Below, one piece after another: positions 9,069 to 30,437 of a DNA stretch of 38,094 bases. Position 1 is the first letter of the stretch. Every line of letters begins with the position of its first letter. The notes under the pieces were generated by a model. The model made no database searches and was not told the DNA's origin. It worked only from the letters and a program-made list of their open reading frames with translations. Source of the DNA: Spongiibacteraceae bacterium (GTDB lineage Bacteria > Pseudomonadota > Gammaproteobacteria > Pseudomonadales > Spongiibacteraceae). The stretch is from assembly GCA_002710725.1 (NCBI GenBank), contig PAKT01000095.1:1-38094 (forward strand), in the 5' to 3' direction. Made by a program: the position numbers and the translations under genes.

Positions 9069-9101
9069 AAAGGCGAATCAGTAAGCTACTGATTCGCCTT
9101 T
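9069..9101 (-). terminator. Strong intrinsic terminator, probably of the tRNA gene whose 3' end remains at 9109-9124
   Basis: Perfect 15-bp stem AAAGGCGAATCAGTA/TACTGATTCGCCTTT with 3-nt loop, followed on the minus strand by TTTATT. Confidence 0.8.
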
Positions 9102-9223: not shown

Positions 9224-9335
9224 AAAAAGGGGTTCGCCAGGACCCCTTTTGTGCATAAATTCCGTTTGAATCCAGAACTTACGCTGCGCATGTGTGTGTA
9301 GCTGCATACAGCCATTAACTGTTTGACGAAGCGCG
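9224..9335 (-). ncRNA. Candidate DRT3-associated ncRNA with ACACACACA template-like loop
   Basis: Immediately 3' of the second RT gene on the same strand; ACACACACA (minus strand of 9291-9299) lies in the loop of hairpin 9283-9312; ends in a GGGG/CCCC hairpin plus T-run. The 5' boundary is a guess. Confidence 0.5.
9225..9250 (-). terminator. Intrinsic terminator closing the RT operon/ncRNA
   Basis: AAAAGGGGTCCTGGCGAACCCCTTTTTATT on the minus strand. Confidence 0.75.
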
Positions 9336-9340
9336 AACGG

Positions 9341-11449
9341 TCAATATACCTCTTGGCTGCGCTTTGCGTCTAGCGCTTTTCCAAGGTCAAAATCTAGCCA
9401 ATTTGTAAACCATTGCTGAGGCTTGCCTTCAGGCGTTTGAAAATTGATGATATCTATTGCATCAGATGAACTGGACACACCGAAAATAGATAACGCATCG
9501 ATTTTTATAGTGTCATTGATGTATGGACAAGAGATCAAGTCAAACAACAGCATGATAGACTCAGCATCCTTCTTCAGAGTTTTAGATCGCTTTTTTAGTC
9601 TGCTAATTGCTATATCAGTTATGACATTTCTAATTTCGTCATAACGAACCTTATCCTTCATGTAAAACAAAGATACTACAATTGAAAAGTAATTCAGCTC
9701 TCTGGGGGGTAATGATGAACTATGGCTAAGCCCCAAGTACCTAGATAAAACTTCTGCCTCAAGCCAATAATTTCGACCAAGCTCTGACAGGGTGACTAAC
9801 AAATAAAGAGTTTCAACTTGCGTGTGGCTACCAGCCCTGTTTTTTTCCAAAATAAAGCTGGTGTTATCAAATATTTGTTTATAAACCGTATGCACAAGCC
9901 CTGAATTAAACTTTGCCGATCGTAGAAAATGAGTGTAAATCCGCAAAACCCGGCATATTCTGATAGTAGTATTAACCCTTGGCGACACGGAATAAATAAA
10001 GAAAACAAAATCGAGAATTTCAATTATTGCTTTAGTTAGATTTTCTTCTGACCTCTCTCCTTGAGATACTTGTAAATAGTTTTTAAGCAACAGCTTAGAT
10101 TTCCTCTCAACTATAGCAAGTGTATAGTTAAGAAGGTCTTTGTAGGAAACATCGCACGACTTGATAATTGACTTAAAGTCAGTGATTAGCCTATTTGAAT
10201 TTACGTATATAGCGCCTTTTACAAGGTCTTCATCTTCCCCCTCAACGACTTCTTTTTCCAATTTAAATTGTATTTTTTCATTCAAAAGTCGAGCTATTTG
10301 ATCTTTAGCCATTGTTATTTCAGTAATAATTGGCTTTTCATAATCAACGGCTTTTGCAGAGTTCAAATGGAGTTTAAATTTTTTCAAGACATGCTGTAGC
10401 TGCTCTAAAATAGCGTCCTTGTCTTCTTGATTGTTATAAAAGACAAAGTAATCATCGACATACCTAAAAACCTCATAATCTCGTTTGTTGTATATTGGCT
10501 TTTTGGATGCCAAAAGCGCTCTTTCTACTTCTTGGTCGATTGCTTGAAGAATGATTTCAGCAAAAATCCTAGAAAATTCCGGTCCAATTATTATTCCGTT
10601 CGTCTCCCCAAGATTCATTGACTGCATTAAAGAATCAAACCCATCCGGGAAATTAGATTTTACTTTTCCCAATACCTCTTTTTGAGTTTCCTTTCCAAGT
10701 AACGCCCAGCCAACCGAATGCGTATATATGCTGTCAAAACATTTCGAAACATCTAACTTTATAAGGCGGTTATATTTTTTTTCAGAGCGGTGAAAGCGAT
10801 AAGATTCATAGAACTTGTATATATTGCTATAGTCTTTATATACGAAAAATGATTTTAAACTCTCGTATTCTTTTCCGCTCTCTTCAATGATTTCCTCCCC
10901 AACCGAAAGACGCTTGGCATGAAGCCCGTCATTAGGAAAATAAAACTTGGCTATTCTGACCGGAGCGCGAATAGAAAAGGGACTATTCTTCGTAAATGAA
11001 AGTATAGTCTCCTTAAATCTGTCATAGAAATCTACGACTTTCAATTGACTCCTGGGGTGTGGCACGCAGAGTTCCCTAAACTCATTCTCCTTATGGCTGA
11101 TCTTGTATGAGAAAGGTGACAAGAACCCCGCAACATCGGATAGTTTCCCCTTTCTATCCATTGATAACTTATACTCAGTTACGTCTTCGGATTTTTCGCC
11201 TATGAATTTTTTATGCGTAGTAATTCGTCCGGGTTCAAAATTTAATCCGAGCAATAAAATAATTATATTTTCTAGTACGCTAGACCCTTTTATCCATAAC
11301 ACCTTATTCCCATTCACTTCCAGACGATTACGAAGCACGAAATCGTAAAAATCTCTATTCGAGAATGTAACAGGAACTTCGTATGGCAAAACATCCGATA
11401 ACAAACACCTTTCTTTCTTATATGGGATACCTATTTTTCTTTTAGACAT
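9341..11449 (-). CDS. drt3b: Reverse transcriptase, DRT3 second-RT (UG8/Drt3b)-like
   Basis: 702 aa; RT motifs LIKLDVSKCFDSIYTHSVGWALLG, GIIIGPEFSRIFAEIILQ, FRYVDDYFVFYNN; long helical C-terminus; overlaps the upstream RT by 8 bp. Confidence 0.7.
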   Translation of the reverse strand: MSKRKIGIPYKKERCLLSDVLPYEVPVTFSNRDFYDFVLRNRLEVNGNKVLWIKGSSVLENIIILLLGLNFEPGRITTHKKFIGEKSEDVTEYKLSMDRKGKLSDVAGFLSPFSYKISHKENEFRELCVPHPRSQLKVVDFYDRFKETILSFTKNSPFSIRAPVRIAKFYFPNDGLHAKRLSVGEEIIEESGKEYESLKSFFVYKDYSNIYKFYESYRFHRSEKKYNRLIKLDVSKCFDSIYTHSVGWALLGKETQKEVLGKVKSNFPDGFDSLMQSMNLGETNGIIIGPEFSRIFAEIILQAIDQEVERALLASKKPIYNKRDYEVFRYVDDYFVFYNNQEDKDAILEQLQHVLKKFKLHLNSAKAVDYEKPIITEITMAKDQIARLLNEKIQFKLEKEVVEGEDEDLVKGAIYVNSNRLITDFKSIIKSCDVSYKDLLNYTLAIVERKSKLLLKNYLQVSQGERSEENLTKAIIEILDFVFFIYSVSPRVNTTIRICRVLRIYTHFLRSAKFNSGLVHTVYKQIFDNTSFILEKNRAGSHTQVETLYLLVTLSELGRNYWLEAEVLSRYLGLSHSSSLPPRELNYFSIVVSLFYMKDKVRYDEIRNVITDIAISRLKKRSKTLKKDAESIMLLFDLISCPYINDTIKIDALSIFGVSSSSDAIDIINFQTPEGKPQQWFTNWLDFDLGKALDAKRSQEVY

Positions 11450-12809
11450 TCTTCCAAGCCTCGACTATTGCAGAAAGGTCTTGAGCTGAAAACTTATGAT
11501 ATCTTTTTCTCTGAAATCCTTTTTCAAACGAATAATTAGACAATCTTGCTTGTAATCTTGAGACAGTCAAAGCAGATACATATGCCTGCAAATGAGCATC
11601 AAGATCCTGAAGATCATCTAACTCTGTCAGTAAGGGATTTGAAAAAAACACACCGGAAACCACATGCTTCTTATTATTAACAAGTCGAGTATTGCTGGTT
11701 AAAAACCGAATGCGTTTTTCCAGAAGACGTCTAGCTTGTTTTTCGTTATACCTCGATTTCTTTTGGTAGGCAGCGAACACCAAATCAATTCGCCTTTTGT
11801 ATCTATCTAACTTCGCATCAGTCATTGCCAGTTTGGCTGGCACGGGGTGCTTTTCCTTACCAGAGGAAAAAGTAATTTTATAACCCAAATATTCGATAGT
11901 ATTTTGAGGAATCGATGAGTCTGGTACTTTTTTTATATCTGTTTTGCTGCTATTCCTCTTTAATCCATGCTTTCTGAAGCACGTCAATATCGTTTTTGCC
12001 AACTCGAAACCATTTTGGTTAGGCTCTGGGCAGAAAACAATTAGCATATCGTCCACATATCTGGAATAGTAGATAACTGCTGGAGGTTTTATTATTGTCT
12101 CATCTATTTCGCGCATATAGAGCTCTGCAAGATATGCGCTGATACCAATCCCCCTCGGGATTCCCAATGAGCTTCCCGAAAGCCGACAATATTCAAATAT
12201 TATCTTTTGAACAATTCGCCTGGAATCAACAGAAAGAAGAGAGTCATCACGTAACTTTTTCAGCAACTTGTCCGTAGGAATGCTCTCATAAAAGGATGAG
12301 ATATCAGTGCGGATTACATATTTAGGAAAGCTATCGCCTAATAATTCACGGACTTGGCAAACTATTTGATGCCTATTTGCCTGTTTAACCTTATACAATC
12401 GCCGAAAATTGTGCTGGATTTGCTTAAGAGCAAAAAAGCTTTCGGCTGTATTATCGGTTGTGTAGACAGGCTTTCCTCCAATGGAGGCACCCTTCTGTAT
12501 ATTCAAAGAAAAGCTTTTTTCCCTAATTTTCTCGCTGACTTTAGTGAGTTCAGCGTCGATCAGAGTATCCCGTTCTTCTTTTAATTCCTTCAGTTCATTG
12601 TAAGCAGAATTAACCTCGTTCTCAGAATCATCTGACTGAACGGCAGCATGTATTTTCCGTAGCTCTCGCAATTTTTTTGAGCGAGATTGTATCTCTTTAC
12701 TTTTATCAGCAATATCGGGAAAAAACCTTCCTTCGAGATAATTGCCTTTTCTATTTTCTAAATCGAATATCTTTCTAAAATTGGAAGCTGAAAATGATTG
12801 ATCAAGCAC
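11442..12809 (-). CDS. drt3a: Reverse transcriptase, DRT3 first-RT (UG3/Drt3a)-like
   Basis: 455 aa; YVIRTDISSFYESIPTDKL, GSSLGIPRGIGISAYLAELYM, YSRYVDDMLIVF; GTG start overlapping the stop of the upstream GIY-YIG gene. Confidence 0.7.
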   Translation of the reverse strand: MLDQSFSASNFRKIFDLENRKGNYLEGRFFPDIADKSKEIQSRSKKLRELRKIHAAVQSDDSENEVNSAYNELKELKEERDTLIDAELTKVSEKIREKSFSLNIQKGASIGGKPVYTTDNTAESFFALKQIQHNFRRLYKVKQANRHQIVCQVRELLGDSFPKYVIRTDISSFYESIPTDKLLKKLRDDSLLSVDSRRIVQKIIFEYCRLSGSSLGIPRGIGISAYLAELYMREIDETIIKPPAVIYYSRYVDDMLIVFCPEPNQNGFELAKTILTCFRKHGLKRNSSKTDIKKVPDSSIPQNTIEYLGYKITFSSGKEKHPVPAKLAMTDAKLDRYKRRIDLVFAAYQKKSRYNEKQARRLLEKRIRFLTSNTRLVNNKKHVVSGVFFSNPLLTELDDLQDLDAHLQAYVSALTVSRLQARLSNYSFEKGFQRKRYHKFSAQDLSAIVEAWKNV

Positions 12810-14028
12810 TTTTCGCTCCCTCGCCAGGCTTATCCGAGAGAGATTGCAAGCTCGCGCTTTTCACATCGTACTTATAGTTTTCGATTTCTCCGCTCTTAAT
12901 CTTCTGGACTGCTTCATCAACGATGAACAACGGCACCAAAAACCACTCTCGCGGTACAACCGGTTTCCCAAACCGGTCTTTAATATCTATTTCCAGACGT
13001 GCCGCGTCGAAAAATCTATGGATTAACTTTTCAAGTTTGCTACGGTTTATGTTGTAAAGATCGTAGGTAGCCACCACCTCAACATCAGCAAGAAGATAAG
13101 TGGCATCGTTCTTTGAATTAGCTATTCTTCGGCTTACGTCACCGCCGGTTACGCCAATCTTATGAATTAAATCTCGATTAGCGGCCACGGTAGGATGATC
13201 GGACTTGCTGCGCAGTACATATATCGTCCCGCTTTGTTGGTCGTCTTCTGAGGCTTCACCAGCGAAAAGCGGACCGGCATTAGGGTCGGTAATTATGCGG
13301 CTAGCCTCGTCTTTATACAGAGCCCGTTGCATTGACCGCAATAACAGGTCACTTTCTGTGCCGTTGGAATAGATTACGCGCAAACGTGCGTCAGTCTCCC
13401 CATTTGGAGCGGTAAAATTCTCGCCAACTTCCGCGATATAGGCGGTCTGTCCACCAAGAATGAAGAACTCTCCTTTCCTGATATCTGTTTTGAGAAAGCC
13501 AGCATCTTTGCGAAATTTCTTAGTTTCACGCACCCCTGAATCAAGCTCTTGTTTTACAGCGTCGAACAATGGTTTGAATTTTTCGAAATCCTCGCAAACG
13601 GTGCGGTTCGCTATTTCTTCCGCAGCACGCTTTTCTGCGCTTGATCGGACGTGTTTGAGCTCTGTGAGTCCGCTATTGGCCTTATCTACGCCTAATTCGG
13701 CAAGCAGCTCTTCGTCGCCAATATCCTCCTGCGAGGAATACGTGGCAGCCGACGGTTCGCCAAGGAGGTTTTGATGATCAATTTCAGACACCAAATCCCG
13801 GCATTCTGTCTGTTCTCTAATCCTGTCGAGGCGAACGGCATATAGTCGCTCGAAGATATCCTTTTCTTCACCATGAGCGGGAGATCGCCCATTTTCTTCT
13901 ACGAAGCGCTGAATTTCCTCGAAGCCCGCAATTATTCTTTCCTCGCGCGGTGTACGCGCTGCTTTTTTTTGGGGCGTTGCTTCTACCCCTAGCGCATCCA
14001 GTAGCTCCTGATCAGATAGCTCAGCCAT
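12802..14028 (-). CDS. GIY-YIG / T5orf172-type domain protein
   Basis: GTIYVLRSKSDHPTVAANRDLIHKIGVTGGDVSRRIANSKNDATYLLADVEVVATYDLYNINRSKLEKLIHRFFDAARLEI. Start placed at MAELSDQELL, overlapping the upstream stop. Confidence 0.75.
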   Translation of the reverse strand: MAELSDQELLDALGVEATPQKKAARTPREERIIAGFEEIQRFVEENGRSPAHGEEKDIFERLYAVRLDRIREQTECRDLVSEIDHQNLLGEPSAATYSSQEDIGDEELLAELGVDKANSGLTELKHVRSSAEKRAAEEIANRTVCEDFEKFKPLFDAVKQELDSGVRETKKFRKDAGFLKTDIRKGEFFILGGQTAYIAEVGENFTAPNGETDARLRVIYSNGTESDLLLRSMQRALYKDEASRIITDPNAGPLFAGEASEDDQQSGTIYVLRSKSDHPTVAANRDLIHKIGVTGGDVSRRIANSKNDATYLLADVEVVATYDLYNINRSKLEKLIHRFFDAARLEIDIKDRFGKPVVPREWFLVPLFIVDEAVQKIKSGEIENYKYDVKSASLQSLSDKPGEGAKSA

Positions 14029-16078
14029 TCTTGGCCTCCGCTGTCTTCTTCTGTAGGAAAGCCACGCCTTCCGCCATCCTTCTCTCCCAAGGGTCAGCAG
14101 CGGTAATCTCTGGCAAGCGGCCACGCTCCTGTTTGAACTTTAAGGCTCGTTTAGCTAGCTCCCGTGCTTCTTCAATGGTTAAGTTTACCCGCCGTCCGGC
14201 AATGACTGCGGCCACCTGTTTTAGGCTTTCTTCACTCATGGCCTTTGCAAGAATGGCGTAGGCCTCACCAAACGGGTTAATGTGATCGATCAAATCGATA
14301 TCGAGATCGCGTACATCCATAGTAAATTTTCTGACGCCATCTATTAGTGCGGTGCCACCACTTCCGCCCTCAGTCTCAAGGCCGCCTTCTTTGATAACAC
14401 GGTCTGCTGCCTGGACGAGGTTTAGTGCCGCTATGGCGTGCTGCCTTACTGCTTCTTGATCTTCTTCATCTAAGTCTGGATATTTGTCCTTAATGATTTT
14501 TCCCATTCTCACCTGGGTCAATTCTTCCGGGATCATTTCTTCATCAAAGATACCGCGCTCTAAGGCTGTCTTGTCCTGGACAAATGAAGTGATCACCTCA
14601 TTCAGGTCTTCGCGGCATATGCGCTGGGCATCTGGGCTTTTAGGCTCAATCAGGCCGTTGATCTCAATTTCAAACTGGCCGGTTTCCTGACAGAACCCAA
14701 CATTCGTTTTGTCGGCGTTGTAACCGCCTTCTCCATAATCAAATCCATCGGTGGGGCCACTTGCCTTCGCTTTGGGGGTAAAGTTAAATCTCGGGGCTAA
14801 CACCTGTTCCATCAGCAAACTCGCGGCTATCGCCTTGAGCGTATCGTTTACAGCTTCGGTTACCGCTTCTTCTGAAGCATCAGGCTCGGCAATTAAGTTT
14901 GTGAAGCGGGCTCGCTCTTTACCAGGCGCATCGCGGGTTGCTCGTCCAATGATCTGGATAATTTCGGTAAGACTAGAGCGATAGCCAACTGTCAGTGCGT
15001 GTTCACACCATATCCAGTCGAAACCCTCTTTAGCCATGCCAAGTGCAATAATGATATCGACATAATCACGATTGTCTTTCTGCGTGGGGTCTTTCAGCGC
15101 AGTCGATACCTTATCGCGCTTGTTTGCGTCATCCTCAACCAAATCAGCAATTCGCAGAGTCCGGCCATCTTTTGTCTCTACAAGGTGAAAGCCCGTAGCG
15201 GGATCAGTACCCTTCCACGAACCAAGTTCCTCAATAATGTGCTCAACTTCTTTTATCTTATCTTTCGTGCTTTCTCGTGAATTGACGTTTGGAATATGGA
15301 CAATGGTCTTCTCGGCAGGATTTAGCACGCTTAGAATTTCATCGACATAAGAGCCGGAGTAGAAGTAGTAGCCAATATCAAGCGTTTTCAGGTGCTCATA
15401 GCCATTTAGTTGTTCGTAGTAGGTGTAGGTAACCGTAGCAAATCGAGATTCATCTTCGGCGGCCATTACAGGTACTGCATCGCCTCTAAAATACGAACCG
15501 GTCATTGCAACGATATGGACTTTATCGCGAGAGATAAATTCGCCTAAATGAGCGCCCAGCTTATTGTCGGGATTTGCGCTTACATGGTGAAACTCATCTA
15601 TAGCAATCAGGCGATCATCAAAAGCTTCTGCACCAAATCGATCAACAGCGAAGCGGAATGTTGAGTGGGTACAGACGAGCACCTTGTCGCTGCTATCAAG
15701 GAAAGCTTTGACCGAATTTACCTTTCCGCCTTCTTCACCTGGGGCATTGCACAGATTCCATTTTGGCTCTACTGACCAATCCCAATAGAAACCAAACTTA
15801 CTTAGTGGTTCGTTGCTAAAGCTCGACCCGATAGATTTTTCAGGAACCACAATGATCGCTTGTTTTAAGCCCTGATTATTCAGCTTATCGAGCGCAACAA
15901 ACATCAGCGCGCGGCTCTTCCCTGAAGCAGGCGGAGATTTAATAAGCAAATACTGCTCGCCCCGACGTTCATAGGCTCTTTCTTGCATGACACGCATACC
16001 AAGCTCATTTGACTTTTTGGAGCTGCCATTACGCGCATACGCTACCGAAACAGATGGGATATGTTTTTGCTCAGTCAT
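14021..16078 (-). CDS. DEAD/DEAH-box (SF2, restriction-type) helicase
   Basis: LLIKSPPASGKSRALMFVALDKL (Walker A-like), LIAIDEFHHVSANPD (DExH), IIGRATRDAPGKERARFTNLI (motif VI). Confidence 0.88.
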   Translation of the reverse strand: MTEQKHIPSVSVAYARNGSSKKSNELGMRVMQERAYERRGEQYLLIKSPPASGKSRALMFVALDKLNNQGLKQAIIVVPEKSIGSSFSNEPLSKFGFYWDWSVEPKWNLCNAPGEEGGKVNSVKAFLDSSDKVLVCTHSTFRFAVDRFGAEAFDDRLIAIDEFHHVSANPDNKLGAHLGEFISRDKVHIVAMTGSYFRGDAVPVMAAEDESRFATVTYTYYEQLNGYEHLKTLDIGYYFYSGSYVDEILSVLNPAEKTIVHIPNVNSRESTKDKIKEVEHIIEELGSWKGTDPATGFHLVETKDGRTLRIADLVEDDANKRDKVSTALKDPTQKDNRDYVDIIIALGMAKEGFDWIWCEHALTVGYRSSLTEIIQIIGRATRDAPGKERARFTNLIAEPDASEEAVTEAVNDTLKAIAASLLMEQVLAPRFNFTPKAKASGPTDGFDYGEGGYNADKTNVGFCQETGQFEIEINGLIEPKSPDAQRICREDLNEVITSFVQDKTALERGIFDEEMIPEELTQVRMGKIIKDKYPDLDEEDQEAVRQHAIAALNLVQAADRVIKEGGLETEGGSGGTALIDGVRKFTMDVRDLDIDLIDHINPFGEAYAILAKAMSEESLKQVAAVIAGRRVNLTIEEARELAKRALKFKQERGRLPEITAADPWERRMAEGVAFLQKKTAEAKNG

Positions 16079-16080
16079 GA

Positions 16081-18831
16081 TTAGTTCGCTTTCTTCTTAG
16101 TTGCAGATGCACCTTGCGAGGTCATCTTTGTATAGAGCTCAAACAATTTTTCAAGCCGCTCAGTGTCATTTTTGAATCGACGACCAATATAGATTCGCTC
16201 TAACACTTCATCGTTTCTATCGTGTGCCCGACGCAAATTGTCCGGCATATTTTCCGGGTCATATAGGTCGGCGATGGTGTCTGGAAAATGTGCTTCGCGG
16301 GCCAAAAGAATATCCTCAGCGCAACGAGTTAGGTCTTGTTTATTCTTTTCTGTAAGGCTTGGCAAGGGGAAGGTATTCCAGCCAAGAGTGTTCCCGTATG
16401 AAAATCGCATCTCCAATCGAGAGCAAACAGTCCCAATCCAAACTATATGCATGGTCGATGCGATTATAGAGAGGTTCCAAAGTTCGCAATCATAAATAGC
16501 GTAGCACTTATCTCCTATTACAGGCCCTGACTGGAAGTAATCTACTGGTAAATAAGATCGATTCTCGGATGAAACCCGAGGGATAATAACTGCTTTGTCA
16601 CCACCTTTAGCAGATAATTGGACGAAACGATATGGGGTTTTCGCGTGAGCTCTGGTTGAGGCAGCCTTGCTATCAGCTCGAAATAATTTGACTTTATCCA
16701 CTCGAGATTTAATTAATGGATTTGAAAGCGCTTCTTCACAATTGTGTTCTGTTATCCAAAGACAAGCTCTAGGCTTCGAGTTAATTAGCTCGTCTGACCC
16801 GAAGAATTGGCGAACAAACGTTGGATTAACATCTTGAGAAATTAACTCTCTCCCCTCAGAGGCGCTCATGATTAAGTTACCTCCGTCTTTAGCCATATTA
16901 CCGAGGTACATATCATCTACTTCAGAAATAGGCGAATTCGTCTTTTTAACAACAACCGAAGAATTAGGAATCAAGTAAGGTCCAATTTCCTTAACCTGAC
17001 GGACTTCCGATTCTGAGTACAACCTTGCGTCATAGTGAGAATTTGAGATTCCAACGATTACTACAGTAACTCCAGCCTTATCGGATGCCAGGTTAGACCA
17101 TTTAAATGAAGAGTGAGCGAACGAAATACTAAATCCCTCATTGAAAATGATCGGCCAGAGTAAGGCCACCTGTTCACCTTGACATATTGAATTAGTAGCC
17201 ACGAACGCGGCTTCTCCATCAGTGTTTCTAAAATATTCACAAGCCTTTACAAACCAATTCGAAACATAATCTAGAGACGCATAAGACCCTGGATAACGCC
17301 CAAAAACCTGCTCTGTATCACTTTTTTCTTCCGGCCCTTTTTTATTTCGCCCTTTGTATGGCGGATTCCCGCAGATATAGGTTTCACCACCTTCGTTCTC
17401 AAAGTCGATTTCGGCCTGATCAATAGGAGAATGGAACAAATCATCTGAATAATGCTTTACTCCGGTGCCAGTAGGCGGGCAAATAGAAAGCCAATCAACT
17501 CGTAGTGCATTGGCACAAGTAATCCAATTTTGTGTGTCAAGGGGCAAGAATTCCGCTAGGGCTTCCTTCTGACCGCGATACATTACATCGCATTGATACT
17601 CAGCAATGATGAGGGCGAGGCGGGCTATTTCAGCGGGGAAGTCTCGGACCTCAATACCTCTGAAATTTGTTAACGGTATATCAGTGCGCCGATCACTTTC
17701 ACCCCGTAGACGGTTAATCTCGGCCTCTATCGCTCGCATTTCTTTATAGGCGATTACAAGAAAATTTCCTGAGCCACACGCGGGATCAAAGACCCGGATT
17801 TTCGCAATACGCTTGCGCAGATTGAGAAGCTTTTGCGGGCTATCTACCACACTCTCAAGTTGCTCACGCAAGCCATCCAAAAATAGCGGGTTTAGGACTT
17901 TCAAGATATTAGGCACGCTGGTGTAGTGCATACCCAAGTGTCCCCGTTCTTCATCATCGGCAACTGCCTGGATCATCGATCCAAAGATATCGGGATTGAT
18001 TTTTTTCCAGTCCAGCTTGCCGATATGGAGCAAATAGGATCGAGCAATCTTGCTGAATTTCGGTGTTTCAGTGCTGCCTGAAAACAGCCCGCCATTCACG
18101 TAAGGAAAGCTATTTGCCCAGCGCGGGATATTGGCCTTTTCCCGCTCTGCCGTTTTCGTATTCATGGCGCGGAAGATTTCGCTTATCACATGATCAGTGT
18201 CTGATGCATCGCGCGCGCTCATTTGGTCGATAGTGGATGTGAATAGGTCATCCCCGTGAAAAATATCGGTATCTTCGGCAAAGAAGCAGAAGATCAGGCG
18301 CGCCATGAAATGGTTCATGTCCGGCCTGCGCTCTGCTGTGCTCCATTCTGGGTTGTCCTTCAAAAGCTCGATATACAGCCGATTAAGGCGGCCTGTTGCC
18401 TTAATATCAAAGGAACTTTCACGAATTTGCTTTACCGTAGTTATTCCGGCGAGCGCAAGGAAGAACCCGAAGTGGTCGGGAAAGTCTTTATATTCACAAG
18501 CGACAGTTTCACCTGAATTCAGGTCTTCTGCTTCAAGCTGAATGCCGTCAGTAGCCAGTACAAATTTTGCCTTTGCTTTTGTGGTGGCAGGGCTCGACTT
18601 CAAAGCCTCAAGGGTTTGAGCTACGGAACCTTCTTCACAGACTTTGATATGGATGTGGTTTCTTTGCAGTACACCGCCCTGGTCGGAGGAATTCGAATTA
18701 CCAGATTGCAGGCGCTTAATCGTAGTCTCTTTGTTACCAAACGCCCTCAAGAAGTCGAACGGAAATTCCTCTCCGTTGAAAGGTTGCTCTGCTAATTCAG
18801 TTATAGCCTGTTCTATTTCTACTGCGTTCAC
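16081..18831 (-). CDS. MmeI-like class I SAM-dependent DNA (adenine) methyltransferase
   Basis: HFMARLIFCFFAEDTDIF spacer, FDPACGSGNFLVIAYKEMRAIE (motif I), YICGNPPYKGRNKKG (motif IV). Confidence 0.85.
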   Translation of the reverse strand: MNAVEIEQAITELAEQPFNGEEFPFDFLRAFGNKETTIKRLQSGNSNSSDQGGVLQRNHIHIKVCEEGSVAQTLEALKSSPATTKAKAKFVLATDGIQLEAEDLNSGETVACEYKDFPDHFGFFLALAGITTVKQIRESSFDIKATGRLNRLYIELLKDNPEWSTAERRPDMNHFMARLIFCFFAEDTDIFHGDDLFTSTIDQMSARDASDTDHVISEIFRAMNTKTAEREKANIPRWANSFPYVNGGLFSGSTETPKFSKIARSYLLHIGKLDWKKINPDIFGSMIQAVADDEERGHLGMHYTSVPNILKVLNPLFLDGLREQLESVVDSPQKLLNLRKRIAKIRVFDPACGSGNFLVIAYKEMRAIEAEINRLRGESDRRTDIPLTNFRGIEVRDFPAEIARLALIIAEYQCDVMYRGQKEALAEFLPLDTQNWITCANALRVDWLSICPPTGTGVKHYSDDLFHSPIDQAEIDFENEGGETYICGNPPYKGRNKKGPEEKSDTEQVFGRYPGSYASLDYVSNWFVKACEYFRNTDGEAAFVATNSICQGEQVALLWPIIFNEGFSISFAHSSFKWSNLASDKAGVTVVIVGISNSHYDARLYSESEVRQVKEIGPYLIPNSSVVVKKTNSPISEVDDMYLGNMAKDGGNLIMSASEGRELISQDVNPTFVRQFFGSDELINSKPRACLWITEHNCEEALSNPLIKSRVDKVKLFRADSKAASTRAHAKTPYRFVQLSAKGGDKAVIIPRVSSENRSYLPVDYFQSGPVIGDKCYAIYDCELWNLSIIASTMHIVWIGTVCSRLEMRFSYGNTLGWNTFPLPSLTEKNKQDLTRCAEDILLAREAHFPDTIADLYDPENMPDNLRRAHDRNDEVLERIYIGRRFKNDTERLEKLFELYTKMTSQGASATKKKAN

Positions 18832-18845
18832 TTAGACTTTAACCC

Positions 18846-19874
18846 TTATTCATCATCCATCATTACCCAAATTTGCTGTAGGGGTATCTCAGCGCGAAGC
18901 TCTTTAGGTAGAGTTTCGTAGTCACCCTGTATGGCGGCAACCAAGTCATCAGAATTCCATAAACGGATATTAAAAAAGTCACGTCGCGCCTCTTCAATTA
19001 CGGTACTTTTGAATCCGCCCCACGAAACAAATAGGCCATGTTTCGCACCAAATTTTTGCATTACGCCCTTTAATTCGTCGTAGTCTTTCGAGCCAGTAGC
19101 ATCATCGCTTGACTTAACTTGTACACAAAGTCTAGGTTCGTCGAATCCCATTGGCCCTCTACCAGCGAGAATGTCAGCGCCGCCATCGGCTCCTTTCCGC
19201 TTATTAACTTGAACCTCATAGCCTTGGGCTTTGAGAACTTCAGCCACAAGCTCCTCCATTCTGTGGCCTTTGAATTTTCTGCCGATATGATCGCTAATCT
19301 GCTGCTTTGCAATTTCTGCAATATCCAGAGATTCACTTTCCGACGGGGTAGTGTCAATTTCCGCTGATTTTTCGGTAGAGACTGGGATTTTAGAAGAGCG
19401 GCCCGCAAGAATAGCTTTTACTCTTTTTTCAGCATTATTTTTCTCGACTCGAAAGACTGTTAGTGCTGAACCAAATGAATAAAGTAAATCTTGATCAAAT
19501 TTACTACGAGGAATAGGCTCGCCTATCCACTTAATTTTACGGCTATGCCGAGCTCCGTCTGGATTGTCGGGAAGATATTCGTACGGCCCTGCTACGTGCC
19601 CTAACGCTATTGCAGGACGGCTCTTCAAGGGAAGCGCAAAGAGGTCGCCGACCTGTAAAGAATTTGCAAAATTGAATAGCTGCCCCGCGTGATTAAAAGC
19701 GGTTTTGGTTTTTATCTCTGGGTCTGCTTGCTCGATACGTTCTTGAATTTCCTCTTTACTACTGAATTGGGTCAAGTCTTCTATTTCACCCCAGCCAATA
19801 AAGCAGCGGCCTTCATCTAGTGCCTGGTTTTCTCGCTCTCCATACCGTCCCGCTCTTGCTACCCAAATAGTCAT
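18846..19874 (-). CDS. Mrr-type restriction endonuclease with N-terminal EVE/PUA-like region
   Basis: C-terminal GRKFKGHRMEELVAEVLKAQGYEVQVNKRKGADGGADILAGR...LCVQVKSS (Mrr_cat D-QxK); N-terminal CFIGWGEIEDLTQF. Confidence 0.85.
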   Translation of the reverse strand: MTIWVARAGRYGERENQALDEGRCFIGWGEIEDLTQFSSKEEIQERIEQADPEIKTKTAFNHAGQLFNFANSLQVGDLFALPLKSRPAIALGHVAGPYEYLPDNPDGARHSRKIKWIGEPIPRSKFDQDLLYSFGSALTVFRVEKNNAEKRVKAILAGRSSKIPVSTEKSAEIDTTPSESESLDIAEIAKQQISDHIGRKFKGHRMEELVAEVLKAQGYEVQVNKRKGADGGADILAGRGPMGFDEPRLCVQVKSSDDATGSKDYDELKGVMQKFGAKHGLFVSWGGFKSTVIEEARRDFFNIRLWNSDDLVAAIQGDYETLPKELRAEIPLQQIWVMMDDE

Positions 19875-20059
19875 GGAGTTTCAGCCCCTTCCTTTATACT
19901 TTTATTGATCCATTGTTCTATGTCTTCTGTCCGAAACCGCCAGCTCCCTCCCACTTTGAATCCGGGAAGCTTACCCTCGGCTGCCAGCTTATAGGCAGTT
20001 TTCTCTGCTAGCTTCAGGTAAGCAGCGACCTCTTTTAAGGTCAAAATTTGATCAGTCAT
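19871..20059 (-). CDS. Excisionase/MerR-type helix-turn-helix protein
   Basis: MTDQILTLKEVAAYLKLAEKTAYKLAAEGKLPGFKVGGSWRFRTEDIEQWI; overlaps the Mrr-like start (ATGA). Confidence 0.85.
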   Translation of the reverse strand: MTDQILTLKEVAAYLKLAEKTAYKLAAEGKLPGFKVGGSWRFRTEDIEQWINKSIKEGAETP

Positions 20060-20190
20060 AGCGCAGAACACCTTTAGAACTAAAAGGAGAATATGGGAAA
20101 ATCGAGGAAAGAACAACCGCCGACAGGGCTTGTCATCCACAGACTTTTAGGTACATTGGATTACAGAAAAGCTAACAGCGACAACGAGTT

Positions 20191-21627
20191 ATGAATAACA
20201 ACCTCAAGCGTCCATATATTAAGCCTAGTGATGCAAAGGCCTGGAGCCTGTGTGCCCGGCGGGTATGGCTGGATAACAAGGGCGACTTGGAGCTGGCACC
20301 CGTCGAAGATGCGTTTGAAAAGCTAGTGATAGAGCTTGGCCTTGAACATGAGCAACACATTCTCGCTGATCTCCGGGCAGGAAATGAGGTTCATACCGCC
20401 ACCAGCCCAGAAGACACGCGGCGTCTTATGGCAGAGGGTGTCGATATTATCTATCAAGCGCAGCTACTAGACGAAAGCGAAGGCTTTGTCGGCTACCCTG
20501 ACTTCCTCATACGTCACGAAAATGGCGAATATCAGCCAGCCGACGCCAAGTTGGCGCTTAGCGCCGATAAGAAGGAAATTCAGGTCCAGCTTGGCTTTTA
20601 CCGACGGATGCTCGGCAGCACATTACCTGCCATTACGTTTCTCGGCGATGGAACAAGAGATTTTATCGGGGATGAGGCTAATCCCATCACGAACCAGTTT
20701 ATCTCTGAAATGCGCTCATTGCTGGCTACCGATGAGGAACCATTGGTTCGATATAGCCATAGCAAGTGCAAAGCCTGTTCCTATTATTCCCATTGCAAGC
20801 CAGCCTTTGAGGCCAAGGAGGAGCTTTCACTTCTCTATGGCATTCAGGGCCGCGCGGCAGACGGATTAGAAGCGGCTGGTATTTCGACGATAAGCGAATT
20901 GGCGGCGGCTGATCCGGCAAACCTTCCCGATATTCCGTATTTGAACGGATTTGAGAATAAGCAGCGCGCGGTCTTTCAAGCCCAGTCTTACTTTAGCGGT
21001 GAGGTTCACCAAATTGCGCCCGTATCTCTGCCGGATGGTCAGTGGGTTCATTTTGACATTGAAGACAACCCGCTGACGGGCACTGGTGAAAAGCATGTCT
21101 ATCTCTGGGGCTTCTTAGTGCCGGATTACGGCCATGATGCGTTTGAGTACGTTTGGACTGACGAGGCCAATCAAGATTACGAAGGGTGGCAGGCCTTTCT
21201 TCATCAGGTAGAAAATTACCGTGCCAAATACCCCAACTTGATTCTGGCTCATTACTCAGCCCATGAACGAACAACGATTAGGGCCTACGCAAAGCGGTAT
21301 GGCATGGAAGACAATGATACTGTCCTTTACCTGCTGGGTGATGATAGCCCGCTTTTCGATATGCAAAAGCCGGTATTGGATAGCCTCGTACTTCCTTTGC
21401 AGGGCTATGGTCTCAAGGACATTTGCAAACACAAGGATTTGGTCAATTTTCAGTGGGAGGATGATAGTTCCGGGTCGCAGTGGTCTGTCGTTCAATTCAA
21501 CCGCTTCATTGCAGAAACCGATATAACCAAGAAATCCCTCTTAAAATCGGAAATTCTTGGCTATAACCGAGATGATGTCATGGCGACTAGAAAGCTGGAG
21601 GAATGGCTACGAAAGAATTATGTGTAG
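20191..21627 (+). CDS. TM0106-type RecB-like nuclease with RNase H-like domain
   Basis: PSDAKAWSLCARRVWLDNKGD, DFLIRHENGEYQPADAKLA (PD-(D/E)XK-like), CKACSYYSHC cysteines, VHFDIEDNPLTGTGEKHVYLWGFL. Confidence 0.75.
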   Translation: MNNNLKRPYIKPSDAKAWSLCARRVWLDNKGDLELAPVEDAFEKLVIELGLEHEQHILADLRAGNEVHTATSPEDTRRLMAEGVDIIYQAQLLDESEGFVGYPDFLIRHENGEYQPADAKLALSADKKEIQVQLGFYRRMLGSTLPAITFLGDGTRDFIGDEANPITNQFISEMRSLLATDEEPLVRYSHSKCKACSYYSHCKPAFEAKEELSLLYGIQGRAADGLEAAGISTISELAAADPANLPDIPYLNGFENKQRAVFQAQSYFSGEVHQIAPVSLPDGQWVHFDIEDNPLTGTGEKHVYLWGFLVPDYGHDAFEYVWTDEANQDYEGWQAFLHQVENYRAKYPNLILAHYSAHERTTIRAYAKRYGMEDNDTVLYLLGDDSPLFDMQKPVLDSLVLPLQGYGLKDICKHKDLVNFQWEDDSSGSQWSVVQFNRFIAETDITKKSLLKSEILGYNRDDVMATRKLEEWLRKNYV

Positions 21628-22193: not shown

Positions 22194-23873
22194 CTATCTA
22201 CCCCGATCTCTGCCTCGGCGTGGCCGTCTTGACCGGCGAGGTCGAGAGTTTCGGTTATTGTCATGGCTTGGGCCATTATCATCATCGCCGCCAGTATCAC
22301 CATCGTCCTGATCAGCACCGGAGGCTTTGTCGAATTCAGCGGTCAGGTTTGGAATATCCTTTTTGCCTTCGCCGCTTTCCTGTCGGCCCTTCTCGGCTGA
22401 TCCGGCGGCCTTATCAAAGTCAGCCGCAAGGTTAGGTATATCATTCGCGCCCCCCTGGGCTCCCTCGCGGGAACCTCGCACCTGCCCAGACGCATCCCGG
22501 AAATGCTCACGGAGATTTACGGCTTCACTACGTTCAAACTGCTTCTGGATATCGCGGCTTTGCTCGCGCTTGAAGTTTGCATCAAGGGCAGCGAGCTCCC
22601 TCGCGTCGATCTTGTTCAGATTTTGCAGGCGACGATCCAGGTCGTGCTCCATCGCTTGATGGACGCGGTCCTGCAATTTCGTTTCTTGCCGCTGGGCATT
22701 CGCCAGCGCTTCGAATTCGTTCGCCTGCTCGGCATGGCGCCTTTTGTCCTGATATTCGTGAAGCTTTTTGCGGGCAAATTCGACACCGGTCACGCGGCCC
22801 AGAAATAAGGCGAGCCCCTGCGGATTGAACCGCGCCCGCTTATCAGTGATTGCCTGCTCTTCGCTGGCTATTTTTTGCTCAAGCCATTTGCCTTCGGCAT
22901 CCTGCTTCTGGATGAGCGCTGCCTTTTCCTTTGTTATTCGCTCGGCCAGCTTCGGACGCTCGGCCTCCAACGGTTTGCGCCGTTCAAGCTGATCCTTTTT
23001 GAGGGTTTCGTATTTCTTGGCCCATTGCTCAAGATCATTGTGCTGTTTGAACTGCTCCCGCTGCTTGGCGGCTATCTGCCGCGCCTCGTCAACGGTCGGC
23101 AAAAGCTCGGTCGGATAATCGTTCTTCAGGAAGGCAGCAACATCTTTTGCCCGGACCGACTTGTCATCGATCATGCGGGGAAGCGCACTTGTGTGCCCAT
23201 GAAGATCAACCACCACATAGGGCCGGTCGCCTTGCGCCAGGATATAGCCCATATCGGCAAGGGCATTCACGAAGCCTTTGGCGCTGTCAGCCCTGTGCCA
23301 GGCTTTAGTGATCTCGGCCATCCGTTCTTCTTTGGTGCGGCCCGTCTGGTTTTGCTGGTGCTGGTCGTAAAGCGAGTTCTGTTTGTTCTTTTCCTTTTGA
23401 TCAGGCTCGTAACCATCCGGCAGGATTAGGTCGTGATCGCGGGCAAACTCCCGCGTCACCTTCATGAGCTTTTCACGATCAAAACTGAGCTGGACGGCTT
23501 TGCCTTGCTCGGCATCAATCCGCGACCAGACGACGTGGGCGTGCTCGCGTCCTTCCTTTATATGGAAGACGACAGCACGGGGCTGATCTTCCAGCCCAAG
23601 CTTTTGTTCAACCCGGTCTATATAGTCCATATATTGATCACGGCTCATCTGGCCGTTGACCTTGGTCCAGGGATTGATTGACAGGCTATATAGGTATTTC
23701 TGGCATTTAGTGAGACAGTGGGCCTGTAACTCCCACTCGGCAAAAGCGCCGTGAAGATCGTCGGCAACGGCTCCACGGATATGGGCAATTTCCACCTGCT
23801 CATTATCCGCCTCATTTTGCAGGTGGGTGGCCAGATCACCGCCACCACCGCGCTGGGAGGCAAAGGGAATCAT
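22194..23873 (-). CDS. MOBP/VirD2-type relaxase
   Basis: GREHAHVVWSRIDAEQGKAVQLSFDREKLMKVTREFARDHDL (HxH region) and long coiled, basic C-terminus. Confidence 0.88.
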   Translation of the reverse strand: MIPFASQRGGGGDLATHLQNEADNEQVEIAHIRGAVADDLHGAFAEWELQAHCLTKCQKYLYSLSINPWTKVNGQMSRDQYMDYIDRVEQKLGLEDQPRAVVFHIKEGREHAHVVWSRIDAEQGKAVQLSFDREKLMKVTREFARDHDLILPDGYEPDQKEKNKQNSLYDQHQQNQTGRTKEERMAEITKAWHRADSAKGFVNALADMGYILAQGDRPYVVVDLHGHTSALPRMIDDKSVRAKDVAAFLKNDYPTELLPTVDEARQIAAKQREQFKQHNDLEQWAKKYETLKKDQLERRKPLEAERPKLAERITKEKAALIQKQDAEGKWLEQKIASEEQAITDKRARFNPQGLALFLGRVTGVEFARKKLHEYQDKRRHAEQANEFEALANAQRQETKLQDRVHQAMEHDLDRRLQNLNKIDARELAALDANFKREQSRDIQKQFERSEAVNLREHFRDASGQVRGSREGAQGGANDIPNLAADFDKAAGSAEKGRQESGEGKKDIPNLTAEFDKASGADQDDGDTGGDDDNGPSHDNNRNSRPRRSRRPRRGRDRGR

Positions 23874-24220
23874 GACTGCCTGCCCATTGCTTTGAAGCAG
23901 CCATTACGGATCGTGACCAATTCTGTGAGAATTTGCTCAAGCTGCAAAGCAACATTTGCGTCATTTCCAGCCACCAAGGCTATCTCGCGCAAATCGTCAT
24001 GGAGGCGGGCTGTCTGTGCCAAAAGATGACCGATAACCTGCTTTTCGATGACAGGCTTTCTGGCTGCGCGTGCAGGTTCCTTGCCGAAAATTGCCTGTGT
24101 GATAAAGGCATTTTTCGAGAGCCCTGACCGCTCGACCCGCAACCAAAATTCGGCTTCCAGCTCTACGGGCGGGCGGTAGGATATCGGTCCTCTGCGCTTT
24201 TGGTCATTTTGCTTTTCCAT
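23870..24220 (-). CDS. mobC: MobC-type relaxosome accessory protein
   Basis: RGPISYRPPVELEAEFWLRVERSGLSKNAFITQAIFG; start at MEKQNDQ preceded by GGGAGG; overlaps the relaxase start. Confidence 0.75.
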   Translation of the reverse strand: MEKQNDQKRRGPISYRPPVELEAEFWLRVERSGLSKNAFITQAIFGKEPARAARKPVIEKQVIGHLLAQTARLHDDLREIALVAGNDANVALQLEQILTELVTIRNGCFKAMGRQS

Positions 24221-24310
24221 GCCTCCCAGCTTACTGAGGCTTTTCTGAGCCGAGCCTCGCGGCGTCATCGTGGCATCCAAACCTGCGGCAGGGTTGGTCC
24301 AGGGTTTTCA

Positions 24311-24607
24311 GGGGAGGCGAATTCCCCTGAATGCAGGTCAAGGCGGCACACGCCTTGTGGAGGGTTCCAAGGGGCGCACACTGCCCTTTGGTCGATGGGG
24401 CCGCCGGGGAGAGCGAAGTCTCCCCTGCTCGTGATGAAACGGCGAAACGTTTACCTCAGCCAGAGAGGTTCGATACCGATCTGGCTGACACAATCCCTTG
24501 GCGCGTCGATTCCCAAAGGATCGACAAGCTTAGGGATTCCGAGGGGGTGTCAACGGGGGATGGGAAGTCCCCCTCCAAGGTGGGCGTGGTATTACCACGC
24601 ACACCTT
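24311..24607. repeat. Array of nine consecutive hairpins
   Basis: Stems at 24311-24327, 24339-24357, 24367-24391, 24406-24425, 24437-24452, 24457-24487, 24492-24538, 24555-24573 and 24577-24607, read directly as inverted repeats. Confidence 0.8.
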
Positions 24608-24817
24608 GTGTTCCATCTTAATGCCTTCCTCCTGCTCTCCTTCGAGTCTACGGAAGAGGTCGTTACCATAATCTTAACAAAGCGCCAAAAACCGCCGTTT
24701 TCCTATGGTTTTCGGGTTTATTCGGGTCGATACGGATCGTTTCAGGTCGCCGCTTCCTTTGGGGAACCGGCGGGCCAGAACGGGCTGGTTCTGACTCTAT
24801 CAGGATGTGAACAAACG

Positions 24818-24848
24818 AAAAGCGGGAACGCTGTCGCGCCCCCGCTTT
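24818..24848. terminator. Hairpin, possible terminator
   Basis: AAAGCGGG...CCCGCTTT, 8-bp stem. Confidence 0.5.
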
Positions 24849-24874
24849 AATTGTGGGTAAGAATTTGGTGGTGT

Positions 24875-25096
24875 TTAGCCTTCGTTATTTTCAGGCTCTT
24901 GCCCGGCTTCACGAAGAACGATGCGGCCACCATTTGCGGGAATCAGGTCGAGCTGAACGGTCATCCCTTTGGCATCTTCATGCCCCCAGGCGGCCCCAAT
25001 CCGGGTCCAGTAGGATTGCTCTCCGCGCTCTGTAACGTGGTAGGCGATGAGTGCCGGTGTCTGGATTTCGCGATTTTGGTTGCGAGTATCGATATT
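24875..25096 (-). pseudogene. 5'-truncated conserved plasmid/ICE-type small protein
   Basis: Start-less frame NIDTRNQNREIQTPALIAYHVTERGEQSYWTRIGAAWGHEDAKGMTVQLDLIPANGGRIVLREAGQEPENNEG*; in frame with and directly after the stop of 25097-25477. Confidence 0.6.
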
Positions 25097-25477
25097 TTAA
25101 TTCAACTCAGCTTTTAATGATGATTTAAGGTTTTCATATCTCTGCTGTGAATGGGCCCAATCCAAGGGGGCTTTAATAAACTTAAGCCCTTTCGGTGGAG
25201 GGGGTGGCACACAGCCCTTTAACTCGGACTTAATAACATCTTCTAAGTAACCGAGCCATTTTTTGTCTCTCTTTTTACTCGATATTTCAATTTCTTCTAT
25301 TTCGGTTCGTGATTTCTCGATGGTTACAGATTGCGGCTGCCACCCAGCTTCACGAGACTTTCGGTAGGGAGCCAGAATTGTCGATCCTCCGAGATACGAG
25401 TCATTTTTCTTAGCCATATTCAGCGTCCAATTTATAGATTTTGTAGTTTCAACCAACTTAAATTTATTACTTAGCAT
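25097..25477 (-). CDS. Hypothetical protein with YLGGSTIL N-terminus (start may be MAKKND, 25420)
   Basis: MAKKNDSYLGGSTILAPYRKSREAGWQPQS... Confidence 0.6.
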   Translation of the reverse strand: MLSNKFKLVETTKSINWTLNMAKKNDSYLGGSTILAPYRKSREAGWQPQSVTIEKSRTEIEEIEISSKKRDKKWLGYLEDVIKSELKGCVPPPPPKGLKFIKAPLDWAHSQQRYENLKSSLKAELN

Positions 25478-25627
25478 GTGAAAAAGAACGCATCAAACAT
25501 AAAATGTGAATGAAGAGCATTGCTAAAGTACCTTCCAAAATCACGAGCCACGATGATGCCGCGAGGCTCGCCATTTTCATGGCGCGTGATAATCCCTGCT
25601 ATCGGAATTGGCAGGACAATATTTGAA

Positions 25628-27163
25628 ATGAGCAGCAAAGACAGTGATGTACTTCTTGGCGACATTCCGCGTGGTGTATCAACCCGCTCGCTGAAGCAGC
25701 AAAGTGCCCCGCAGGCTCGCTGGCAAACCAGTGCCTCTATACAGCAAAGCGCGGCGCTGGCCTATGATCCCGAAGCCCCTTACGGAAAAATCCTCGTGGG
25801 TGCCATTGGCAATAAACTCGTGGGCATTGAAGACAACCGTCATATATTGACCGTCGCCGGTAGCCGCGCCGGTAAATCTGTCGCCGTTATTGGCAATATG
25901 TGCTTTTACCCCGGCAGCATTTTAGCAACCGATCCGAAAGGCGAGCTTGCGAGCCTGACTGCGGCCCGGCGGGCGGCCCTCGGCCAAAAAGTCTATGTGC
26001 TTGATCCCTTCGAGCAAACAACCGGCTTCGCGGCGGAGCATCGGGCGATATTTAATCCGATGGCTGCGCTAAGCCTTAACAGCCCCACCATTATTGAAGA
26101 TGCGGCCTTAATTGGGGACGCGATGGTGATTGCCGCAGGCAAAGACCCCCACTGGGATGAAAGCGCCCGCAATTTTATAGAGGGCATCATTTTGCATGTG
26201 GCTACGGCGGCGCAGTATGAAGGTGAACGAAATTTGATCACCGTTCGTAGCCTGCTCCGGCGTGCAATGGATTGGCAGGGCGACGATGACAATGGCGATT
26301 TCACGCTAAAAGCCGAGATGCTGGCAAACGCTGACTGGCTTGGGCAAGGATGCGGCTATACCGATGTTGCAGACGCTATTGAGGGCGCAGCGTTCGATTT
26401 CTTTGATAAGGGAGAGAATGAGCGCGCGAGCGTCCTTTCCACCGTTCGCCGCCATACCAAGATACTGGAATATACGGCAATGCGCCGGGTACTTTCCGGC
26501 CACGATTTTGATCTCGCCGATCTGAAGCGAGAGGATGGCGGCGTTACTATTTACCTTTGCCTGCCAGCCAGTCGCATGGGGCTGTGCAATCGCTGGCTTC
26601 GTATCTTCATCAATCAGCTCCTTGATGCGATGGAGCGTGAAAAAGCGGCACCCAAAAATCCGGTGCTGGTGGTGCTGGATGAATTTCCGGTGCTGGGTCA
26701 CATGAGCCAGCTTGAAAACGCCGCCGGTCAGATCGCCTCTTTTGGGGTGAAGCTATGGTTAATCTTGCAGGACTGGGGACAAGGAACCACCCTATATAAG
26801 GAAAGATGGGAAAGCTTTGCAGCCAATGCCGGGATCATGCAATTTTTCGGGAACAATGACCTCGCCACTACGGAATATATATCCAAGCGGCTCGGCAAAA
26901 CTCAGATCAACGCAATTCGTGGCGGTGAGGTCGGGCAGGATCAGGCCCGCCAGGGAATGACCGGAAAATCGGAAACATTGGAGCTTCATGATCTCATGAC
27001 CCCGGAAGAGGTCACTCGATTCTTTGCGCGCTCGGATGGCAAGAAACGTCAGCTCGTGATCTGGGCGGGCTACCATCCAATGATTTTGCAGCGGGTGGAG
27101 TATTTCGACCAGAACGGGCCGTTTGCGGAACTATTTTCTGGTCTGGCCGAACATCCGAGATAA
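25628..27163 (+). CDS. VirD4/TraG-type type IV coupling protein
   Basis: GSRAGKSVAVIGNMCFYPGSILATDPKGELAS (Walker A), VLVVLDEFPVLGHMSQLENA (Walker B), LWLILQDWGQ. ORF open from 25520; start chosen at MSSKDSD. Confidence 0.9.
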   Translation: MSSKDSDVLLGDIPRGVSTRSLKQQSAPQARWQTSASIQQSAALAYDPEAPYGKILVGAIGNKLVGIEDNRHILTVAGSRAGKSVAVIGNMCFYPGSILATDPKGELASLTAARRAALGQKVYVLDPFEQTTGFAAEHRAIFNPMAALSLNSPTIIEDAALIGDAMVIAAGKDPHWDESARNFIEGIILHVATAAQYEGERNLITVRSLLRRAMDWQGDDDNGDFTLKAEMLANADWLGQGCGYTDVADAIEGAAFDFFDKGENERASVLSTVRRHTKILEYTAMRRVLSGHDFDLADLKREDGGVTIYLCLPASRMGLCNRWLRIFINQLLDAMEREKAAPKNPVLVVLDEFPVLGHMSQLENAAGQIASFGVKLWLILQDWGQGTTLYKERWESFAANAGIMQFFGNNDLATTEYISKRLGKTQINAIRGGEVGQDQARQGMTGKSETLELHDLMTPEEVTRFFARSDGKKRQLVIWAGYHPMILQRVEYFDQNGPFAELFSGLAEHPR

Positions 27164-27187
27164 CTTAACGAAAAAGCGGAGAATTTG

Positions 27188-27628
27188 TTACCAAATGATT
27201 TTTGATCCGTGTTTTATACCAATCTTGTCTTTGGCTATATTCACCAAGCGGGGAGTCCACTTTTCGCCAGAGGCTGTTTTGAAGCCCGTTTCATTCCAGA
27301 ACTTAGCTACATCATCGGCCCTGGTTAATCCTGCGTCTTTAGACCGGTCAAACTGACCTTTGATACTTGCTAAAAAATTCTTCCATCCAGAAGAATACAT
27401 ACCTATATCATTTTTATCCTGAGAAGAAACTCGAATAGTTTTCAAATCTCTCCTGATTTTTCTTAGCTCTTTCTCTTTGCTTCCAACTTCATCAAGATAA
27501 TCTTGTGTCCTTCCCTTGCCATGCATAGCCTTTATTTTTCTGGATAACCGCTCGGAAGAATTCTTAACTCCAATTTTTGGCGAGCAATGTAAAATAGTGC
27601 TACCACCAAGATAATGATTTTTCCCCAT
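27188..27628 (-). CDS. Hypothetical protein with YLGGSTIL N-terminus
   Basis: MGKNHYLGGSTILHCSPKIGVKNSS... Confidence 0.65.
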   Translation of the reverse strand: MGKNHYLGGSTILHCSPKIGVKNSSERLSRKIKAMHGKGRTQDYLDEVGSKEKELRKIRRDLKTIRVSSQDKNDIGMYSSGWKNFLASIKGQFDRSKDAGLTRADDVAKFWNETGFKTASGEKWTPRLVNIAKDKIGIKHGSKIIW

Positions 27629-28800: not shown

Positions 28801-28803
28801 ATA

Positions 28804-30418: not shown

Positions 30419-30437
30419 GCCCAAGGAGGACGCTGCC

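Follow-up and report, generated by a model that had tools for sequence, protein, structure and literature searches.

The biochemistry and structures of DRT3 have been investigated in E. coli systems, and a second large clade has a much smaller RNA. E. coli DRT3 is reportedly also the subject of a study by Deng et al. in Science in 2026, which is cited here by way of a review. The locus described below raises the question of what form the smaller RNA takes and how it holds its template. The window, by which is meant the whole stretch of DNA analyzed, comprises 38,094 nt of Spongiibacteraceae bacterium (GCA_002710725.1, contig PAKT01000095.1, positions 1-38,094, forward strand). For the locus itself, the identity of the genes, the conserved residues of their products, and the location, fold, pseudoknot and template conservation of the RNA were determined. 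It is regarded with little reservation as a complete DRT3 antiphage system that belongs to a clade with compact ncRNAs, the RNA core being pseudoknotted.

Identity of the reverse transcriptases

The open reading frame at 11442-12809 (minus strand) encodes a Class 2 (UG3) reverse transcriptase of 455 residues with a YVDD motif. It matched the NCBIfam equivalog NF041747 (2.9e-121, 405.7 bits; cut-off 200), was assigned to Drt3a by PADLOC (2.5e-116), and its product matched PDB 9z6y_A (1.4e-28). The open reading frame at 9341-11449 (minus strand) encodes a Class 1 (UG8) reverse transcriptase of 702 residues, also with YVDD, that matched equivalog NF041748 (1.2e-222, 741.1 bits; cut-off 350) and was assigned to Drt3b by PADLOC. 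The solved proteins nearest in sequence to the pair are those of E. coli DRT3 (26cz and 9z6y), and since the similarity is to solved DRT3 the protein identities are considered settled. By analogy, poly(GT) is the expected product when Drt3a copies the ncRNA template.

Residues E22, R71 and R241 of EcoDRT3b gate the alternating addition of dA and dC, and Y666 primes synthesis (PMC13174585). Alignment with 26cz and 9z6y placed E24, R125, R294 and Tyr702 of the window Drt3b at these four positions; Tyr702 is the final residue and aligned with Tyr650 of 9z6y. Among 109 aligned Drt3b sequences, R294 and the two catalytic aspartates were invariant, the R125 position was arginine in 106 with a gap in 3, and the E24 position was glutamate in 100 and aspartate in 6, with a gap in 3. 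The six sequences with aspartate in place of E22 (L006, L100, L102, L103, L107 and L108) all belong to the E. coli-like clade. A terminal tyrosine was found in 108 of the 109; L082, which ends in AY, is the exception and reflects a shift in the alignment.

Location of the compact ncRNA

The DRT3 template ncRNA of the compact class was located at 9225-9340 (minus strand), a length of approximately 116 nt that starts immediately downstream of the drt3b stop codon, from which point the minus strand reads CCGTTCGCGCTTCGTCAAACAGTTAATGGCTGTATGCAGCTACACACACATGCGCAGCGTAAGTTCTGGATTCAAACGGAATTTATGCACAAAAGGGGTCCTGGCGAACCCCTTTT. The location was supported by a covariance model, R1, trained on 40 compact-clade sequences from which the window and its closest kin had been left out. 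R1 matched the window at 9226-9339 (minus strand) with 80.5 bits and an E-value of 1.8e-17, the second-best match within the window having an E-value of 0.13. In a search of 369 genomes of the same class at E 0.001, a match was obtained only in the genome of the window, where no other match was significant. Over 63 other loci the model recovered the close kin excluded from training, together with most of the other loci of the compact clade, all significant matches lying downstream of drt3b, and no significant match was obtained in E. coli-like loci. R1 is a practical means of finding compact DRT3 systems. A search of Rfam 15 returned no family match anywhere in the window.

The results agree with the preliminary description of this DNA, which had proposed a DRT3 ncRNA with an ACACAC template in a loop: both reverse transcriptases are DRT3 equivalogs, the AC run is conserved as described below, and the RNA is found by a model built from other loci. 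Position and strand also fit as had been suggested, an ncRNA with a looped 5'-ACACAC-3' lying downstream of DRT3b as in EcoDRT3 (PMC13174585). The search for a promoter belonging to the ncRNA itself gave one sigma-70-like site (9372-9343) at chance level, and operon read-through is therefore preferred as the source of the RNA. Just past the ncRNA, at 9069-9101, lies a 15-bp bidirectional terminator-like inverted repeat.

Conservation of the AC template

The putative template, ACACACACA (9291-9299, minus strand), is single-stranded in the predicted fold. Homologous loci were gathered from plasmids, from one genome per species and from viral contigs; a scan of the viral contigs with a single protein gave no match, and an alignment-based scan of them did yield homologous loci. 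Downstream of every Drt3b homologue with a C-terminal tyrosine there was an (AC)n run of 6 nt or more. The run contains ACACAC in all genuine Drt3b loci among 110 checked except L034 and L038, which carry CACACA. Nine weaker reverse transcriptase matches without the terminal tyrosine (L113-L121) had no AC run of at least 6 nt. Within the compact clade, ACACAC lies no more than 60 nt from the Drt3b stop codon in 78 of 86 loci and no more than 140 nt from it in 84, the remaining two being L034 and L038. These two loci, from Orbaceae gut symbionts, have CACACA at a distance of 77 nt from the drt3b stop codon and a larger 5' insertion. The background frequency of ACACAC, taken from the rest of the homologous loci, is 1.1e-4 per position per strand, equivalent to approximately 0.006 expected per 60 nt. 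Both the ACACAC core and a GC shortly 3' of it were invariant in an alignment of 66 sequences, designated A3. The preliminary description had staked its proposal on conservation of the AC run across homologous loci, and the run is conserved.

Among alternative dinucleotide templates sought within 60 nt of the stop codon in compact loci, GTGTGT, AGAGAG, ATATAT and TGTGTG were absent, and CTCTCT was seen in 4 loci. The sequence does not reveal the template register or the repeat step, since the AC run repeats its dinucleotide perfectly.

Fold of the RNA and covariation

The minimum free energy fold of 9225-9340 (minus strand), computed for the lone sequence, comprised four helices, P1 to P4, with an energy of -37.8 kcal/mol and a z-score of -3.17. 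The same helices were found with compensating changes when homologues were compared side by side, together with a pairing of the P4 loop inside P1. Pairing was counted per cell on A3, a MAFFT alignment of 66 loci made from sequence only. For the whole structure 84.0% of cells were paired versus 71.6% in shuffled controls and 40-49% in slid versions, with 335 double-change cells versus 138 shuffled; these A3 figures, like those for the pseudoknot, are somewhat inflated because the 3' ends in A3 were selected partly by pseudoknot score.

The 5' strand of P1 (GCGC, 9331-9334) pairs with its 3' strand (GCGC, 9286-9289) to close the template loop by just 4 uninterrupted base pairs in the window. 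Core P1 was paired in 96.1% of cells versus 79.2% shuffled, with 50 versus 12.3 double changes. The P2 hairpin (GGCUG-UAUG-CAGCU, 9300-9313) lies directly 5' of the template and was paired in 92.0% of cells versus 86.8% shuffled, with double changes in 5 of 5 pairs. P2 is a putative 5' template boundary element. The P3 hairpin (9253-9284) is variable in sequence, with 56.7% of cells paired; its pairs differ widely across loci and align poorly, and covariation is weak. P4 (9225-9250), an intrinsic terminator hairpin followed by a U-rich tract, was paired in 99.8% of cells with double changes in 6 of 7 pairs. All four helices, on the minus strand, belong to the minimum free energy fold. RNAalifold applied unaided to the full alignment recovered P1 and P4, and P2 was not recovered in that run. 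P2 was not found in six compact loci (L055, L061, L070, L071, L084 and L090), in which the motif lies 24-31 nt after the stop codon. Since some compact loci are without a detected P2, its presumed boundary role is not universal, and these loci offer natural tests of the need for a boundary hairpin.

Pseudoknot with the terminator loop

The preliminary description had recognized the intrinsic terminator hairpin at 9250-9225, which is confirmed; in addition, its 8-nt loop supplies one strand of a conserved pseudoknot. The 5' strand of the pseudoknot, UCGUCA (9324-9329, minus strand), lies just inside P1 and pairs with UGGCGA (9239-9234) in the P4 loop. On A3, with the inflation stated above, 95.5% of cells were paired versus 75.1% shuffled (66 loci), with 90 double-change cells versus 26.8 shuffled and compensatory change at 6 of 6 pairs. 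Because of the way the A3 ends had been selected, the pseudoknot was retested with P4 chosen by hairpin strength alone. The mean score was 13.9, versus 11.1 ± 0.24 with shuffled 5' strands and 11.2 ± 0.24 with loops swapped between loci. Pairings elsewhere include CAGUCC/GGACUG (L024), UCACCCU/GGGGUGA (L036) and AUCUCC/GGAGAU (L073). Because the terminator itself provides P4, the pseudoknot would be restricted to transcripts that have terminated. We infer a role for the pseudoknot, as a requirement of the complex or in stabilizing the RNA.

Two clades of Drt3b with different RNA architectures

The Drt3b tree resolved two deep clades, one E. coli-like with 21 rows and one of 87 that includes the window, the separating branches having 100% SH-aLRT support. 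The E. coli DRT3 known from experiment falls in the former. The E. coli-like rows include L096-L098, of which L097 is near-identical to 9z6y; L003, placed by identity with the long group at first, falls in the compact clade on the tree. The compact clade spans Pseudomonadota, Bacteroidota, Acidobacteriota, Verrucomicrobiota, Campylobacterota and Nitrospirota. The median spacing between the positions of E22 and R71 was 91 residues in compact-clade Drt3b versus 56.5 in E. coli-like Drt3b, approximately 35 residues more. The E. coli-like RNAs mostly have a long terminal P1 (up to 12-16 bp; in L097 the closing stem is GUUGAAGCAACC/GGUUGCUUCAAC), several internal hairpins, and the template near the 3' strand. 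The RNAs of the window clade have a short P1, the template after P2, and a 3' module of P3 and P4 that carries the pseudoknot. The window RNA accordingly lacks the long closing stem and the template near the 3' end that mark the E. coli-type ncRNA structure. A compact-clade DRT3 also occurs on an E. coli plasmid (L001, CP083496.1), with a Drt3b 42% identical to that of the window and possibly broken, since it is annotated as two pieces.

Alternative explanations

The preliminary description had drawn the AC run in the loop capping a bulged 8-bp stem, reading GCTG-TA-TGCA-GCTACACACACA-TGCG-CAGC on the minus strand (9312-9283) directly downstream of the Drt3b stop codon (ORF 9341-11449). If this were the fold, the terminator could be nothing more than a terminator. 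The sequence is as described, standard pairs suffice to draw the stem, and the isolated 30-nt piece folds with -6.8 kcal/mol into a structure related but not identical to it. Across 66 homologues, however, 54.6% of cells of this stem were paired versus 54.9% shuffled, with no compensatory excess, and forcing it gave -29.7 kcal/mol, a cost of 8.1 kcal/mol relative to the best fold. The stem also competes for the same bases with P1 and P2, both of which covary and with both of which it is incompatible. With covariation at the shuffled level and this energy penalty the stem was rejected, and its apical-loop reading is considered highly improbable. What stands of the earlier proposal is the presentation of the template in a loop; the loop is closed by P1, with P2 inside and the template directly 3' of P2. 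That the AC repeat arose by chance or as low-complexity sequence in the 3' UTR, and has no template role, is hardly credible. That role, as proposed for the window, is read from sequence, but ACACAC (CACACA in two) follows every genuine Drt3b checked at a far lower chance expectation, is invariant in the 66 rows, and is the demonstrated template in EcoDRT3 (PMC13174585).

Pairing of the 5' strand with the P4 loop could instead be a regulatory switch, for example one tuning termination or RNA stability, and not a structure bound by Drt3a. P4 does have the form of an intrinsic terminator and pairs with transcript just upstream, and the pairing in the compact clade is known here from sequence alone. 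Since the pairing engages the P4 loop and not the stem, the terminator is not disrupted as it would be by an antiterminator. The pairing is also kept together with the template core across Pseudomonadota, Bacteroidota and other phyla, and in DRT2 the ncRNA of the solved complex is stabilized by a pseudoknot (PMC12596737). A switch is for these reasons thought unlikely, and a pseudoknot in the working RNA is preferred. A different product in the compact clade, or an RNA that is chiefly a scaffold with a secondary template role, would be in keeping with the distinct RNA architecture and the approximately 35 extra residues of Drt3b; a scaffold role of the ncRNA is also reported for E. coli DRT3 (review, PMC13314766). 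The template core and the Drt3b gate residues are nevertheless identical in both clades, which makes such a departure distinctly improbable.

Proposed mechanism

In the proposed mechanism the ncRNA would be the 3' end of the drt3a-drt3b transcript, extending from the drt3b stop codon to the terminator hairpin P4. P1 would enclose a loop holding P2 and then the single-stranded template, and the P4 loop would fold back on the strand just inside P1 to give a pseudoknotted core. Drt3a would copy the ACAC template from its 3' end toward P2 and stop there, P2 serving as the template boundary; such a role fits the precedents of DRT10 and EcoDRT3. The product would then slip back by microhomology and be recopied, yielding poly(dTdG). 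Synthesis of the complementary poly(dCdA) by Drt3b would start from Tyr702, need no nucleic-acid template and be gated by E24 and R294, and the two strands would form double-stranded DNA. By analogy, the compact clade probably yields the same products as EcoDRT3.

The balance of the results leans toward a separate compact class of DRT3 template RNA, spanning at least six phyla, in which the terminator hairpin is structural and its loop pseudoknots beside the template loop, so that only a correctly terminated transcript folds into active RNA. The finding links a transcription terminator to the folding of a reverse transcriptase template RNA. Since the two clades strongly share only the ACACAC template and a hairpin that is usually 5' of it, as seen here, a minimal functional core is indicated. 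The compact RNA may represent a simpler form of a telomerase-RNA-like core composed of template, boundary hairpin and pseudoknot.

Genomic neighborhood

The system forms part of a packed run of defense genes on the minus strand (9341-20140), the ends of which overlap or nearly touch. The run contains a mad1-like HTH gene, PDC-S02/Mrr, an MmeI-type IIG restriction-modification gene, a DEAD/ResIII helicase, a GIY-YIG (T5orf172) gene, drt3a, drt3b and the ncRNA. In L010 and L019 a GIY-YIG gene also immediately precedes drt3a, suggesting that part of the defense cassette travels together. A TIGR03491 RecB-like/RNase H nuclease (20191-21627, plus strand) adjoins the island, and in L010 a DUF2779/RNase H gene lies just after DRT3. 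The RecB-like nuclease is of note because the toxicity of DRT3 is reportedly limited by RecBCD (PMC13174585). Farther along are a MobA-type relaxase identified by Pfam (22194-23873) and, judged from translation, a TraG/VirD4-like coupling protein (25520-27163), a tyrosine integrase (33194-34363) and a HipA-like kinase (35450-36709). In view of the mobile-element features at 22194-36709 the island is probably mobile.

Comparison with known systems

The system is a known DRT3, and the compact form of its RNA is apparently undescribed: no compact pseudoknotted RNA class was found in the literature searched, outside of which lie Deng et al. 2026 and Mestre et al. 2022. The nearest comparison is EcoDRT3 (PDB 26CZ, Wang et al., PMC13174585; PDB 9z6y/9z6z), with which the window has in common the order Drt3a-Drt3b-ncRNA on one strand, a looped ACACAC template, the gate residues E22/R71/R241, YVDD and the C-terminal priming tyrosine. 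The ncRNA requirement, products, tyrosine priming, gating and defense have all been shown for EcoDRT3, in which poly(dTdG) arises from copying of the template by Drt3a, and poly(dCdA) is extended by Drt3b from its own tyrosine; synthesis has been proposed to end when copying runs on into the neighboring stem-loop, and close relatives of EcoDRT3 supplied the seed of the published ncRNA model (PMC13174585). The two differ in that E. coli-like Drt3b are approximately 26-32% identical to the window protein, and in that the RNAs of the EcoDRT3 clade mostly have a long closing P1 whereas the window RNA, of approximately 116 nt, has a short P1 and the P4-loop pseudoknot.

Three other defense systems offer more distant parallels. 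The DRT10 ncRNA likewise has a short template directly 3' of a stable hairpin and is copied into tandem repeats by realignment, its SL5 being inferred to set the 5' template boundary (PMC12632851). DRT10 differs in pairing one reverse transcriptase with SLATT, in its diverse template sequence and in the position of its ncRNA, upstream of SLATT, and belongs to another family. In DRT9 the template loop of the Class 2 reverse transcriptase is at an analogous position (PMC13174585), but a single reverse transcriptase makes poly(A) from a poly-U template. The DRT2 ncRNA resembles that of the window in being a defense reverse transcriptase RNA with a pseudoknot bridging distant segments (PMC12596737); DRT2 differs in having a single reverse transcriptase and rolling-circle-type copying of an ncRNA segment, and the sequence and fold of its RNA are unrelated to those described here.
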